A program made the translations under genes and the position numbers. From positions 1 to 52,530 of the forward strand of contig JAFLUM010000012.1 in assembly GCA_022508805.1 (NCBI GenBank): a DNA stretch of 52,530 nucleotides, written 5' to 3'. This document shows positions 24,851-35,616 of this stretch, piece by piece. Each line of letters starts with the position of its first letter. Position 1 is the first letter of the stretch. The stretch is from Oscillospiraceae bacterium. Its GTDB lineage: Bacteria > Bacillota > Clostridia > Oscillospirales > Acutalibacteraceae. Below the pieces are notes generated by a model, which was not told where the DNA came from, did not search any database, and saw only the letters and a program-made list of their open reading frames with translations.

Positions 24851-24874
24851 TCAGTAATTCAAGAACATAAAAAA

Positions 24875-25064
24875 TCACCCTGCGGAGCACGATAACTACG
24901 GCTGATATTAACCCAACAATCAATAAAAGGGAGTCATATCTCGCGAAGCTCGGAGCAGACCTCCCGTCAATTTGACGGACGAAGGGAGCAAAGGTCTTTG
25001 CGGACGACACCCACCTGCAATACGCAGGTTATTATTCGCCGTTCCCGACTCTGCGGGGCTTGTT
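24875..25064 (+). ncRNA. ssrS: 6S RNA
   Basis: About 190 nt. The ends close as a stem: CCCTGCGGAG (24878-24887) with CTCTGCGGGG (25049-25058), ten pairs including two G-T. The 3' half carries the conserved block GACGACACCCACCTGCAATA, followed by CGCAGGTTATTATTCGCC. This matches the E. coli 6S stretch of the same form, in which GACGACAC leads to CACCTT, a short hairpin and AGGGTTA. Two long arms with a central open region fit the rod structure that mimics open promoter DNA and binds RNA polymerase. A 40-bp copy of the 3' end lies at 25142-25181. Confidence 0.8.
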
Positions 25065-25181: not shown

Positions 25182-25300
25182 CAAAAATATTATTATATCA
25201 AACAGCTAATATTTTAAGCGTGCTTTAATCCGCGCTTTTTTGTTTATTTATCAAAAATGCCGTCAAAACTCCTTGTGTATCAACATAAGGAGTGATTTTT

Positions 25301-25912
25301 TTGAAAAAAAAGATAATAAGAATTGAAGTCTCTGTTTTAGCCGCTCTGTTACTGCTCTGCATAGTTAATATTTCGTCTTTTTCGCAACAATGTGATGAGA
25401 TAAGGGACAAAATGCTCAGAATGCACGTTATAGCTAATTCCGACAGTGATGCAGATCAGGAATTAAAGTTAAAAGTCAGAGATGCAGTATTGGCAGACGG
25501 CAAGGATATTTTTGACGGTTCGGTGACAGCTGAGCAAGCGGAGGAAAAAATACTTCCCGAGACCGAAAGACTTCGTGATACTGCCTTGCAAGTCATAAAA
25601 AACGAGGGATATGACTATGACGTACAGGTGACCGTATGTAACGAGTATTTCACAACAAGAACATACGACAATTCAATAACGCTCCCCGCCGGATACTATA
25701 CTTCCGTCAAGGTGGTAATAGGCGAGGGTGCAGGGCACAACTGGTGGTGCGTGATGTTCCCGCCCATGTGTCTGCCTGCCGCCGAAGCTGAGTGCGAAAT
25801 ATCCGACGTTCTTGACGATGAACAAACCGATATAGTCGAAAACGGCAGTAAATATCATTTTAAATTTAAAATTGTTGAGATATATGAGGAACTGATACGA
25901 AAATTTAAATAG
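25301..25912 (+). CDS. spoIIR: Stage II sporulation protein R
   Basis: TTG 25301 is preferred: AAGGAGTGA at 25287-25294 is six bases away. The 203-residue protein has an N-terminal hydrophobic signal (about 8-25) and the SpoIIR hallmarks LRMHVIANSDSDADQELKLKVRDAVL and GHNWWCVMFPPMC. SpoIIR is secreted from the forespore and triggers SpoIIGA to process pro-sigma-E in the mother cell. The family is found only in endospore formers. Confidence 0.92.
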   Translation: MKKKIIRIEVSVLAALLLLCIVNISSFSQQCDEIRDKMLRMHVIANSDSDADQELKLKVRDAVLADGKDIFDGSVTAEQAEEKILPETERLRDTALQVIKNEGYDYDVQVTVCNEYFTTRTYDNSITLPAGYYTSVKVVIGEGAGHNWWCVMFPPMCLPAAEAECEISDVLDDEQTDIVENGSKYHFKFKIVEIYEELIRKFK

Positions 25913-25945: not shown

Positions 25946-25969
25946 ATGTATATATGTGATTTTGGAGGA

Positions 25970-26096
25970 GTTAGTGTGAAAAAATCACGCTAACATATTT
26001 TGAGGTGGACAAAATTACCGTCACGCCTTGTTCGGCTACACAAGGATTAAATGTGATGTTGAGAAGCTTTTGTAGCCGGAAAGGCTATGGTAATAT
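25970..26096 (+). promoter_or_regulatory. Structured leader, copy 1 (candidate new cis-regulatory RNA)
   Basis: The leader ends one base before the GH20 ATG. Helices seen: P0 GTTAGTGTGA/TCACGCTAAC (25970-25994); P1 ATTACC (26014-26019) with GGTAAT (26089-26094); P2 GTCAC (26020-26024) with GTGAT (26053-26057); P3 CCTTG (26026-26030) with CAAGG (26041-26045); P4 TAGCC/GGCTA (26073-26087). The P3 loop TTCGGCTAC (26031-26039) is complementary to GTAGCCGGA (26072-26080), allowing a pseudoknot or a switch with P4. The SD-like GGAAAGG (26078-26084) sits in the P4 loop. A mini-ORF GTG-AAA-AAA-TCA-CGC-TAA (25976) has GGAGGAG before it. The second copy is at 34816-34974. Confidence 0.65.
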
Positions 26097-27674
26097 ATGA
26101 GCGCACCGAAATACAGCATCATACCAAAACCGCAAAAATATGAAGCTATAGACGGAACGTTTACCGTGACACCGAATACGGCGGTGCTTTGCGTACCTGA
26201 ATTTAAAAATGCAGGTATGTACCTTTCCGAGTTCTTAAGGACGAAAAAGGATGCATCCGACGGTGCAATAAAATTCAATAAAGACGATTCACTCAAAAGT
26301 GAGGGCTACCGCCTTAAAATAAGCAGTGACGGTATAACAATAACCGCATCTGATGCACGCGGAGCATTCTACGGTGCCGTTACTTTAAAAATCATTATTA
26401 TGCAAGGTAAACAGGCAGACGGTAAAGCCGTGCTGAACGGTGCGGATATATATGATTATCCCGAGTATGAGTTCAGAAGCGGTATGCTTGATGAAAGTCG
26501 CCATTTCTTTGGCGCGGATGCCGTGAAAAGACTGCTTGACAGCATGGCGATGGTTAAGCTCAATAAATTTCATTGGCACTTAAGCGATGATCAGGGCTTT
26601 CGTATTGAGAGCGAAAAGTTCCCTCGTCTCAACGAGATAGGCAGTAAGCGAAAGGATGAATATCTTGTCCCGTCAGGGGCGCTTGCCGCTGTGTCGGAGC
26701 TGAAAATAACGGGTGGCGAATACTGTCACTATTATAAAAAAAGCGAAATTCGTGAGATCGTCGAGTACGCCCAAAAGCTTTGCATCGACATAATCCCCGA
26801 AATCGATATGCCCGGTCACACGGTCGCACTGCTTGCGTCATATAAAGAGCTGTCCTGTATGAAGGGTGAATATGAGGTCAATTATAAAAACGGAATAATG
26901 GAGGACATTTTGTGCGCGGGTCAACCTGAAACGTATGAATTTCTTGAAAAACTGCTGCAAGAGATTTGTGAGTTGTTCCCGTACAAATATTTCCATATAG
27001 GCGGCGATGAGGCGTTATTCGGACATAAGATTTGGGAAAAGGACTGCCCCGTCTGTCAAGCAGAGATCAAGAAAAATTCCCTTAAAAACGGCGCTGAGCT
27101 TCAAGAGCTGTTTATAAGCAGAATAAATAAAATACTTAACGGATTTGGCAAGACTTGTATCGAGTGGAACGATGGCGTCGGAGAAAAAACCGACGAAAAT
27201 ATCATCTGCCAGTATTGGACACTACGCGGACCGATGTGGCTAAAAAAAGAGATGGGAAAAAGAAAGTTTATAATTTCTCCCGTTACGCATTTTTATTTTG
27301 ATTACAGCTATGCCCACACACCGCTAAAAAAGACGTATAGCTATGTACCGCCGAAATTCGGTGATAACGATAGTGTTTTAGGCTTTGAGTTCGAAATGTG
27401 GACGGAATGGATAACCGAAGAAAGCGCAGTGCAGTTTTCGGTTTATCCGAGGATCTTTGCCGTAGCCGAGCTTGCGTGGACAAGGGGCTCAATTCGCAAT
27501 TATAAAGATTTCTATAAACGCCTTGATTTCTTTAAGGCATATATGCGTTCAAAAAATATCAACTATTCACGGTTAGAAAAAAGAAAGCTTGCCATAAGAA
27601 ACCGTTCCGGTTACAACTTGGGCAAATTCGGACCGGAATATAAATATAACGAAAAAATCAAAGAAACGGAATAA
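26097..27674 (+). CDS. Beta-N-acetylhexosaminidase, GH20
   Basis: Protein of 525 residues without signal peptide, so cytoplasmic. An N-terminal GH20b-like domain (1-125, GGVTITASDARGAFYGAVTL pattern) precedes the GH20 barrel: DESRHFFGADAVKRLLDSMA, KFHWHLSDDQGFRIE, IIPEIDMPGHTVALLA, and the catalytic D304-E305 pair in HIGGDEALF. It removes terminal GlcNAc or GalNAc from glycans or chitooligosaccharides. The ATG is within the structured leader repeat. The next gene begins 11 bases later, so the phosphate transporter is likely cotranscribed. Confidence 0.92.
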   Translation: MSAPKYSIIPKPQKYEAIDGTFTVTPNTAVLCVPEFKNAGMYLSEFLRTKKDASDGAIKFNKDDSLKSEGYRLKISSDGITITASDARGAFYGAVTLKIIIMQGKQADGKAVLNGADIYDYPEYEFRSGMLDESRHFFGADAVKRLLDSMAMVKLNKFHWHLSDDQGFRIESEKFPRLNEIGSKRKDEYLVPSGALAAVSELKITGGEYCHYYKKSEIREIVEYAQKLCIDIIPEIDMPGHTVALLASYKELSCMKGEYEVNYKNGIMEDILCAGQPETYEFLEKLLQEICELFPYKYFHIGGDEALFGHKIWEKDCPVCQAEIKKNSLKNGAELQELFISRINKILNGFGKTCIEWNDGVGEKTDENIICQYWTLRGPMWLKKEMGKRKFIISPVTHFYFDYSYAHTPLKKTYSYVPPKFGDNDSVLGFEFEMWTEWITEESAVQFSVYPRIFAVAELAWTRGSIRNYKDFYKRLDFFKAYMRSKNINYSRLEKRKLAIRNRSGYNLGKFGPEYKYNEKIKETE

Positions 27675-34157: not shown

Positions 34158-34823
34158 ATGATAAATGTAGCTATTGACGGTCCTGCAGGAGCAGGAAAAA
34201 GTACTGTTGCGCGTGCGGCGGCAAAGAAACTCGGATATATTTATGTTGATACTGGCGCCCTTTACAGAGCAGTCGGGGTAAACGCACTGCGGAATAAAAT
34301 TGAGACGACCGATGCAGAAAAGGTGGGAGCGTCTTTGGCAGACATTACCGTCGAACTTAAATTTGTCCAAGGAGTTCAGCACGTGTTTTTAAACGGTGAC
34401 GACGTTTCTGAGGAAATACGCCTGCCCGAAGCCTCAATGGCGGCGTCAAATGTTTCTGCAATACCTGCGGTTCGAGCATTTCTTTTTGATTTACAGCGTG
34501 ATATTGCCGCTAAAAACGACTGTATAATGGATGGACGTGATATCGGTACAGTAGTGTTGCCTGATGCTCAGGTCAAAATATTCCTCACAGCAGATGATGA
34601 AGAACGCGCTATGAGAAGATATAAGGAGCTTAAAGAAAAGGGTAGCGAAGTAACCTTCAAAGAGGTTCTCGACGATCTGCGCATTAGAGACTATAACGAT
34701 TCACACCGCGAAATAGCTCCGCTTAAACCTGCTGAGGATTCCGTGATGATAAACACTACAGGCATGACGCTTGAGGAGTCAATAAACGCCGTAATAAAAG
34801 CCGTTAAGGAGAAAATAGCGTGA
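34158..34823 (+). CDS. cmk: Cytidylate kinase
   Basis: Protein of 221 residues with P-loop AIDGPAGAGKSTVARAAAKK, YVDTGALYRAVG, DGRDIGTVVLPDAQVKIFLTA and RDYNDSHREIAPLKPAEDS, all typical of Cmk. It phosphorylates CMP and dCMP. First gene of cmk-plsC-ispH/rpsA, an order widespread in Clostridia. Its TGA is part of the conserved GTGAAAAAATCA start of the structured leader before plsC. Confidence 0.95.
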   Translation: MINVAIDGPAGAGKSTVARAAAKKLGYIYVDTGALYRAVGVNALRNKIETTDAEKVGASLADITVELKFVQGVQHVFLNGDDVSEEIRLPEASMAASNVSAIPAVRAFLFDLQRDIAAKNDCIMDGRDIGTVVLPDAQVKIFLTADDEERAMRRYKELKEKGSEVTFKEVLDDLRIRDYNDSHREIAPLKPAEDSVMINTTGMTLEESINAVIKAVKEKIA

Positions 34824-34974
34824 AAAAATCATGCTAATAAATTGTATGTCCCTCAAAATTTGCACAAAACAAATTTTGAGACGGACTTAATTACCGTCAC
34901 GCCTTGTCCGGCTACGCAAGGATTAAATGTGATGTTTCATAGTGATTTGTAGCCGGAAAGGCTATGGTAATTAT
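34816..34974 (+). promoter_or_regulatory. Structured leader, copy 2 (inside the cmk-plsC operon)
   Basis: Same helices as copy 1: P0 TAGCGTGA/TCATGCTA (34816-34836); P1 ATTACC (34890-34895) with GGTAAT (34966-34971); P2 GTCAC with GTGAT (34896-34900, 34929-34933); P3 CCTTG with CAAGG (34902-34921); P4 TAGCC/GGCTA (34950-34964). The P3 loop TCCGGCTAC (34907-34915) is exactly complementary to GTAGCCGGA (34949-34957). Compared with copy 1 there is an extra long stem at 34848-34886 (CTCAAAATTTG pairs with CAAATTTTGAG, closed by GTCC/GGAC). The mini-ORF GTG-AAA-AAA-TCA-TGC-TAA overlaps the cmk stop. The leader ends one base before the plsC ATG. Confidence 0.65.
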
Positions 34975-35616
34975 ATGAGATCCGAAGACTTTTTTGATTT
35001 TACTCAATTTAACAATTATAAGATGATGAACGTCATCAGACCGTTAGGAAACTTATTTTGTAAAACCTACTATAAGGTGGAGTATGCGGGACTTGAAAAT
35101 CTTGACCGCAAGGGCGGATTTATCATCGCTCCTAATCACGTAACCGAGTTCGACCCGCTGTTTATCGCAATGGCATCTAAAAGACTTTATCACTATATTG
35201 CAAAATACGAGCTTTTTACAAATCCCGTTCTCAATAAAGCCATAACCCATCTGAACGCCTTCCCGATCGTGCGCGGACGCGGCGATATGACCGCTATCAA
35301 TTACGCTATTGAGCTTATTCGTCGCGGCGAGGTGCTGTGCATTTTCCCCGAAGGCACACGGTCACCGGACGGATCGCCGAAAACTGCAAAATCAGGTGTC
35401 GGACTTATGGCACGCAAAACCGGCGCTGATGTCATTCCTGCAGCTATATATATGGAAAACAAAGACAAAAAGGGCTCTCGCGTTGTCGTTAAATTCGGCG
35501 AGGCAATAAAAAATGAAGAAATGGGCTTTACCGACACAGGCAAGAGCAAAGAAAACAAAGCGGCGGCAAATAAAATTATGGACGAGATAACACGTCTTTG
35601 GGAGAGCTGCAAGTGA
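34975..35616 (+). CDS. plsC: 1-acyl-sn-glycerol-3-phosphate acyltransferase
   Basis: Start at ATG 34975, the ATG of the leader repeat; 213 residues. Acyltransferase motifs: NHVTEFDPLFIA (HX4D), PIVRGRGD and FPEGTRSPDG, then KSGVGLMARKTGADVIPAA. It acylates lysophosphatidate in phospholipid synthesis at the membrane. The ribosome site is the GGAAAGG inside the leader, 12 bases or more from the ATG and partly folded. Its stop overlaps the next start (GTGA). Confidence 0.88.
   Translation: MRSEDFFDFTQFNNYKMMNVIRPLGNLFCKTYYKVEYAGLENLDRKGGFIIAPNHVTEFDPLFIAMASKRLYHYIAKYELFTNPVLNKAITHLNAFPIVRGRGDMTAINYAIELIRRGEVLCIFPEGTRSPDGSPKTAKSGVGLMARKTGADVIPAAIYMENKDKKGSRVVVKFGEAIKNEEMGFTDTGKSKENKAAANKIMDEITRLWESCK

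Follow-up and report, generated by a model that had tools for sequence, protein, structure and literature searches.

A structured RNA element that is probably a small mobile leader with a two-state ribosome-binding site at gene starts in clostridia-like bacteria

The window analysed here is a 52,530-nt stretch of an Oscillospiraceae genome (G000; 1.96 Mb, 99% complete). Two related leaders with long identical stretches in common were identified in it, at 25970–26099 and 34816–34977, each terminating in the next gene's start codon, namely that of a GH20 gene (PF00728) for copy 1 and of a plsC-like acyltransferase gene (PF01553) for copy 2, just as the sequence-only reading had described them. 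The MFE z-scores against dinucleotide shuffles are -6.1 (25970–26099) and -8.5 (34836–34977). Copy 1 is preceded by a spoIIR-like gene (25292–25912), and a 6S RNA (RF00013, 58.7 bits) is encoded 5′ of that gene at 24874–25063 (+).

The complete element is ~155 nt long and lies in sense orientation within the spacer between an SD and a start codon. It consists at the RNA level of a 5′ hairpin H1 (GTGA-A(n)-TCAC core), usually another hairpin (H2), and a ~95-nt core that brings its own SD-like GAAAGG, mostly 11–14 nt ahead of the native start codon. Two mutually exclusive folds of the core have one switch strand in common. State A comprises a CCTTG/CAAGG hairpin with a short stem below, whose loop pairs downstream with GTAGCCGG as a pseudoknot; state B is a long hairpin made up of an outer helix, GCCTT/AAGGC pairing at the SD and CCGGCTAC/GTAGCCGG pairing. 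Both window copies have H1, the CCTTG/CAAGG hairpin and the loop pairing with GTAGCCGG; the 5′ arm and loop of H2 are absent from copy 1, and the other five G000 copies have H2. The features of the two copies are as follows.

25964–25969 (+): native SD GGAGGA left 5′ of copy 1; the empty GH20 locus L018 has the identical TTTTGGAGGAGTTA, there followed by AAAATATG
25970–25994 (+): copy 1 hairpin H1 (GTTAGTGTGAAAAAATCACGCTAAC), from sequence; GTGA-A(n)-TCAC is kept in other copies
26014–26021 (+): copy 1 outer helix 5′ strand, partner 26087–26094; helix covariation
26025–26030 (+): copy 1 switch strand GCCTTG, partners AAGGC at the SD (state B) or CAAGG at 26041–26045 (state A); covariation, triple change in L141
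26032–26039 (+): copy 1 loop TCGGCTAC, partner 26072–26079; covariation
26041–26045 (+): copy 1 CAAGG, 3′ arm of the state-A hairpin; covariation
26072–26079 (+): copy 1 GTAGCCGG, 3′ strand of the loop pairing; covariation
26079–26084 (+): copy 1 element-borne SD-like GAAAGG, 12 nt ahead of the ATG at 26097
26087–26094 (+): 3′ strand of the copy 1 outer helix, close to the element's right end; covariation, tandem junction in L159
26097–27674 (+): GH20 gene behind copy 1, with native start codon; PF00728, homologues without element
34806–34811 (+): native SD AAGGAG left 5′ of copy 2; GGAGAAA is present here in all seven empty plsC loci (L240–L246), AAGGAG in five of them
34816–34836 (+): copy 2 hairpin H1, overlapping the stop codon (34821–34823) of the upstream cytidylate kinase ORF
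34848–34886 (+): copy 2 hairpin H2 (GTCCCTCAAAATTTG ... CAAATTTTGAGACGGAC); sequence and fold
34889–34897 (+): copy 2 outer helix 5′ strand AATTACCGT; covariation
34901–34906 (+): copy 2 switch strand GCCTTG; covariation
34908–34915 (+): copy 2 loop CCGGCTAC, partner 34949–34956; covariation
34917–34921 (+): copy 2 CAAGG, 3′ arm of the state-A hairpin; covariation
34949–34956 (+): copy 2 GTAGCCGG, 3′ strand of the loop pairing; covariation
34956–34961 (+): copy 2 element-borne SD-like GAAAGG, 13 nt ahead of the ATG at 34975
34964–34972 (+): 3′ strand of the copy 2 outer helix (ATGGTAATT), close to the element's right end; covariation
34975–35616 (+): plsC-like acyltransferase gene behind copy 2; PF01553

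The element proper probably starts near 25973 (AG) in copy 1. Because H1 of copy 2 overlaps the cytidylate kinase stop codon, ribosomes completing that gene end inside the element. BLAST found six strong copies in G000, two of them the window leaders, in front of GH20, plsC, hisS, nusB, a Cons_hypoth95 gene that we take to be rsmD, and a P-type ATPase gene. The mean identity of the six cores is 84%.

Five of these loci (GH20, plsC, nusB, rsmD and hisS) were compared by eye with their counterparts in relatives. Element-free relatives have an ordinary SD-start spacer at these loci, so the copies are read as clean insertions within that spacer, which these comparisons establish at the sequence level, with junctions uncertain by a few bases. 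All 20 GH20 homologues are element-free in the 170 nt upstream, and the junction reads TTTTGGAGGAGTTAAAATATG in L018 versus TTTTGGAGGAGTTA + element + ATATG in G000. The relatives examined are likewise empty for nusB (6 of 6; GGAGGATATTATG in L248 versus GAGGATA + element + TATG in G000), plsC (7 of 7; AAGGAGAAAATATAATG in L240 versus AAGGAGAAAATA + element + TATATG) and rsmD (7 of 7), these three sets being hand-chosen and mostly close relatives. For hisS, where all loci returned by the search were included, 28 of 29 relatives are empty in the 75 nt upstream. The filled one, in G031, shares just 57% identity with the G000 hisS copy and has its closest resemblance to a copy from another genus, so the same spacer was probably struck twice, with separate origins. 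Since SD, spacer and start codon are all present in relatives without the element, the start codon is native. The earlier suggestion of a mobile repeat that carries its own SD and ATG is accordingly borne out for mobility and the SD but not for the ATG. In addition, a contig end of G052 (L159; G052:C118:1-240) carries a head-to-tail repeat of the element with a spacing of 156 nt, which defines the unit AGTGTG...GGTGAT; by the same reading, copy 2 is 155 nt long (34817–34971). Core-only copies are read as older insertions.

Searches were performed with two covariance models, R1, built from the six G000 copies, and R2, a model of the core alone. R1 matched 15 of the 39 genus genomes and 12 of 150 in a family sample, and R2 matched 18 of the 39, 8 of 394 in an order sample and 22 of 391 in a class sample, the own genome being counted each time; the other 21 carriers in the class sample belong to ten other families. 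Within the genus the distribution is patchy, with 12 of 27 high-quality genomes carrying the element (R2). In an even sample of the phylum, searched with stricter filters, none of 397 other genomes gave a match, which left the own genome as the sole carrier among 398. Viral contigs contained no match to two exact element patterns, and no BLAST match was found in plasmid and phage records with copy 2 as the query. Three contigs of G018 (C124, C82 and C97; L114, L146 and L185) end within or beside a copy, so the copy numbers in draft genomes are likely to be underestimates.

An ORF (50 codons or longer, or 20 or longer when running off the stretch) starts 5–20 nt behind GAAAGG in 96 of 102 copies, as compared to 13% of random positions. 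This set comprises 86 of the 95 distinct R1 places in the genus and family together with 16 from the R2 searches of genus and order; the nine places left out are G018:C50, G034:C26 (which was fetched later), G142:C35, G093:C8 and five that are antisense shadows of palindromic copies. The distance from GAAAGG to the start is 14 nt in 59 copies, 13 nt in 17 and 11 nt in 13. The six exceptions are L185 (contig end), L159 (tandem array), L164 (weak match), L283 (beside an N run), L290, which has ATA at the place where its relative L288 has ATG, and L198 (G059:C26:51399-51600), a complete copy that lacks a gene start behind it and, by eye, follows a terminator-like hairpin. A copy outside this count (G023:C1; L267) also lies ahead of an ATG. 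In the class set, made up of 40 of the 48 places found beyond G000, an ORF starts at the expected place or a few bases off for 39 copies. The placement at gene starts is therefore established, and the scatter over random genomic positions that the sequence-only reading had named as a refuting outcome is not seen. Assuming that SD-start spacers make up ~1% of such a genome and perhaps 5–6% of its non-coding DNA, the finding of six out of six G000 copies in such spacers, in sense orientation, calls for targeting or very strong selection.

Pfam matches were obtained for 29 of 30 downstream proteins scanned (chosen from the 96) and for 9 of 9 in the class set (chosen from the 39). The functions of the downstream genes are unrelated and cover, among others, tRNA synthetases, DNA repair, glycolysis, cell division and transport; among the products are NusB, TsaD, an SRP-type GTPase, TIM, UvrB, RecR, MnmE and aldolase.

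An SD-like motif is found just before H1 in 33 of 36 copies versus 23% of random positions (H1 was recognised in 36 of 96) and in 13 of 17 class-set copies versus 20% (17 of 40). These counts use a strict H1 pattern; the other copies are without H1 or have a diverged H1. A first hairpin finder, by which 19 of 25 copies had such a motif, was dropped in favour of this pattern because some of its picks were H2. As to a possible masking of the native SD by H1, the flanks pair with H1 beyond chance at positions 2 and 3 (28 of 36 copies each, versus 15.4 and 12.1 when shuffled). In predicted folds, however, pairing of the native SD is no higher with own than with swapped H1 (0.58 versus 0.62) in 33 copies from the genus and family and is only weakly higher with own H1, 0.84 versus 0.73, in 12 class-set copies. 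A CCTCC behind H1 in L309, L311 and L323, an apparent anti-SD within the element, is predicted to pair with the left-over native SD (GGAG or GGAGG).

Covariation of the core helices was analysed in alignment A4, for which 52 of the 86 copies were taken and five dropped (47 sequences), and in a class-set alignment of 38 of the 40 copies, after removal of one near-duplicate and one 55-nt match. In A4, the 22 pairs of state B are formed in 93.3% of cells, and 10 of them have double-sided changes. There are 63 double-changed cells for state B versus 19.2 in shuffled alignments, a signal that is lost on sliding the partner strand, and 41 versus 9.4 for state A. The corresponding counts in the class set are 76 versus 24.9 for state B and 25 versus 7.7 for state A, with a bias towards the outer helix and four loop pairs, which are modelled in the R2 used to find these copies. 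In the hairpin arm of state A, the class set has two double-changed cells and a pair-type count not above that of shuffles (169 of 500 reach the same), so that the class support for state A comes mostly from the loop pairing, which state B has as well. In L141 a triple change is seen, with the switch strand GTCTTG alongside CAAGA and AAAGAC. The core-only copies at ilvE-like loci of three species (PF01063; L281, L286 and L291) show joint changes in the loop pairs, from TAC/GTA to TGT/GCA, which argues for continued selection on the fold once the element is in place.

The covarying helices are thus established from the aligned copies, and the competing pairings around an SD-like sequence noted in the sequence-only reading correspond to states A and B, both of which covary in both alignments. 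Of the five helices P0–P4 proposed there, both window copies have P0 (H1) and P3, and in both the P3 loop pairs with GTAGCCGG. Hairpin P4 (TAGCC-GGAAA-GGCTA) was rejected: neither the 47 nor the 38 sequences show a double-sided change, and in the class set one of the five pairs is never formed. Its GGC is accounted for by pairing with the upstream GCC.

In the mechanism that we propose, the downstream gene would be read from GAAAGG, which presumably matches the 3′ end of 16S rRNA (CCUUUC), instead of from the native SD. The early hairpin and pseudoknot of state A would leave most of GAAAGG free, whereas rearrangement to the long hairpin of state B, in which the switch strand and the outer helix pair with the 3′ part, would mask it; state A would thus be the on state and state B the off state. 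For each of the six G000 copies, the MFE fold of the complete core is state B (-28 to -40 kcal/mol, in a calculation without pseudoknots), so state A may perhaps be a mere folding intermediate. The 5′ part alone is predicted to fold into the state-A hairpin in win2, L011, L012 and L014 and into other hairpins in win1 and L013 (-14 to -17 kcal/mol). In L295, from another family of the order, the predicted fold does not reach state B. The prevailing distance of 14 nt from GAAAGG to the start exceeds the usual SD spacing, which counts against this mechanism. Ribosomes drawn to the left-over native SD could initiate at the GTG in H1. A leader peptide from this GTG, which is present in 31 of 36 copies, was considered and rejected; its reading frame is 1 to 56 codons long, can take any of the three frames with respect to the gene and gives no conserved uORF.

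It is unlikely that the element is instead a leader controlled in trans by a protein or small RNA, with copies that make up a scattered regulon under a factor binding H1 or the pseudoknot and that spread because such control is useful. The GTGA-A(n)-TCAC core of H1 does recur across families while its flanking pairs vary, as for a recognised site, and the core-only ilvE-like copies still covary at the same gene in related species; however, the gene set is incoherent and fewer than half of the high-quality genomes of the genus (12 of 27) carry the element.

The spread of the copies appears to proceed by transposition, and some mobilising machinery may be inferred. The nearest neighbour of 30 of 94 copies lies in the same genome, as compared to a shuffled mean of 4.2, and some copies sit at orthologous genes in related species, so the element both spreads and is inherited vertically. 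As expected of MITE-type elements, empty and filled sites are found among relatives (five of the six G000 loci), but neither terminal inverted repeats nor a constant target duplication at the compared loci could be recognised by eye, the ends AGYG.. and ..GGTAAT not being inverted repeats of one another. No cargo-carrying copies were noticed by eye. A Y1 transposase (PF01797), the mark of IS200/IS605-derived elements (REP, PATE), was not matched in 9 of the 18 genus carriers, including G000 and G019; the other nine have a match, in G004 and G031 only a weak match below the cut-off. Reverse transcriptase (PF00078, RVT_1) has no match in 12 of the 18 carriers, again including G000 and G019, and is found in six; nor did Rfam give a catalytic RNA match, the other mark looked for of group II introns and retroelements. 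Given these absences, a Y1 transposase or a reverse transcriptase acting as mover in trans is not supported.

Several known repeats offer points of comparison. The bcr1–bcr18 repeats of the Bacillus cereus group, 100–400 bp in size, resemble the element in their mobile features and several copies per genome, and bcr1 is listed with a conserved secondary structure (PMC6542083, PMC2267715). Unlike the element, they are described as having mobility tied to a TTTAT motif, with the first BCR element restricted to that group; the available excerpts of these descriptions make no mention of placement between SD and start or of an own SD, both of which are features of the element. REP/RAYT units (IS200/IS605-associated) likewise are imperfect palindromes with GTAG in the core and small and non-autonomous, but, according to the excerpted account, REPs are 20–40 bp long (PMC3733652) as compared to ~155 nt for the element, and the element-bearing G000 and G019 have no Y1 transposase match. 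The GTAG of the element is also mostly replaced by GTGG, GCGG or GTGA in the class set, unlike the core GTAG of REPs. Mobile or repeat candidates in bacterial ncRNA searches share with the element several copies of a motif per genome; as far as the excerpt describes them, they often lie near transposase genes and are predicted to be selfish (PMC11109978), whereas the element is tied to the start codons of unrelated genes.

The clean insertions, the tandem unit, the within-genome similarity and the palindrome-rich sequence could all come from a purely selfish DNA repeat whose palindromes serve some recombinase on single-stranded DNA, with the RNA structure as a passenger and survival wherever no gene is broken. 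We consider this distinctly unlikely, since survival alone fails to explain the near-absence of found copies elsewhere in non-coding DNA, and the near-fixed distance of GAAAGG from the start and the covariation of the switch strand with two partners argue for a translational role.

Comparison with Rfam 15 yielded just two tRNAs and the 6S RNA above the gathering cut-off in the window. The best match of the core at E up to 10 scored 19.3 bits against a cut-off of 90, and 17 loci gave two matches, both under their own cut-off (E 0.28 and 0.48). That no known riboswitch class was recognised in the leaders in the sequence-only reading is consistent with this result. In a literature search, no paper among the matches listed was recognisable as describing the element, most subscription-journal papers lying outside its reach.

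In translational riboswitches with H-type pseudoknots, such as preQ1 and SAM-II, competing folds mask or free the SD before the start codon. The element has similar competing folds around an SD, with two exclusive folds, an H-type pseudoknot, SD masking and covariation around the expression platform that is weaker for the class-set state-A hairpin. It differs from these riboswitches in having no coherent regulon and no Rfam match and in being inserted in existing SD-start spacers. A metabolite or second-messenger riboswitch acting on translation is very unlikely, given the unrelated downstream genes, which do not support a metabolite riboswitch with a coherent regulon, the insertion-like spread and the stretch between the hairpin and GTAGCCGG, which by eye is poorly conserved and has no evident ligand-binding core. 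An intron-like element excised at the RNA level would give back the order of SD, spacer and start at the compared loci, but is scarcely credible with no Rfam intron match and with core-only copies (L281, L182 and L284) that retain GAAAGG and its spacing, the core itself appearing to act as the binding site.

Taken together, the element combines the behaviour of a mobile repeat with the architecture of a translational switch and is placed in no known family; the structured-leader and mobile-repeat readings of the two window copies were both right. It is probably a small, non-autonomous mobile leader of clostridia-like bacteria that is linked to start codons and has a two-state ribosome-binding site. 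More tentatively, and with the balance of probability somewhat against it, the copies may represent a class-wide mobile family that targets the SD-start spacer and swaps the host RBS for its own bistable, regulated one, in effect a transposable translational switch that rewires arbitrary housekeeping genes.

The element adds an RNA family that is absent from Rfam 15, and it may retune the translation of nearly any gene that it precedes. If the proposed reading is true, translation of housekeeping genes such as hisS, nusB, tsaD, ftsY, tpiA and uvrB in some clostridia would hang on a mobile folded RNA, and a regulatory RNA would be spreading to unrelated genes via insertion. How so small a target as the SD-start spacer gets located would then become a clear question, and the copies would be ready natural RBS replacements for testing the effect of mRNA folding on translation.
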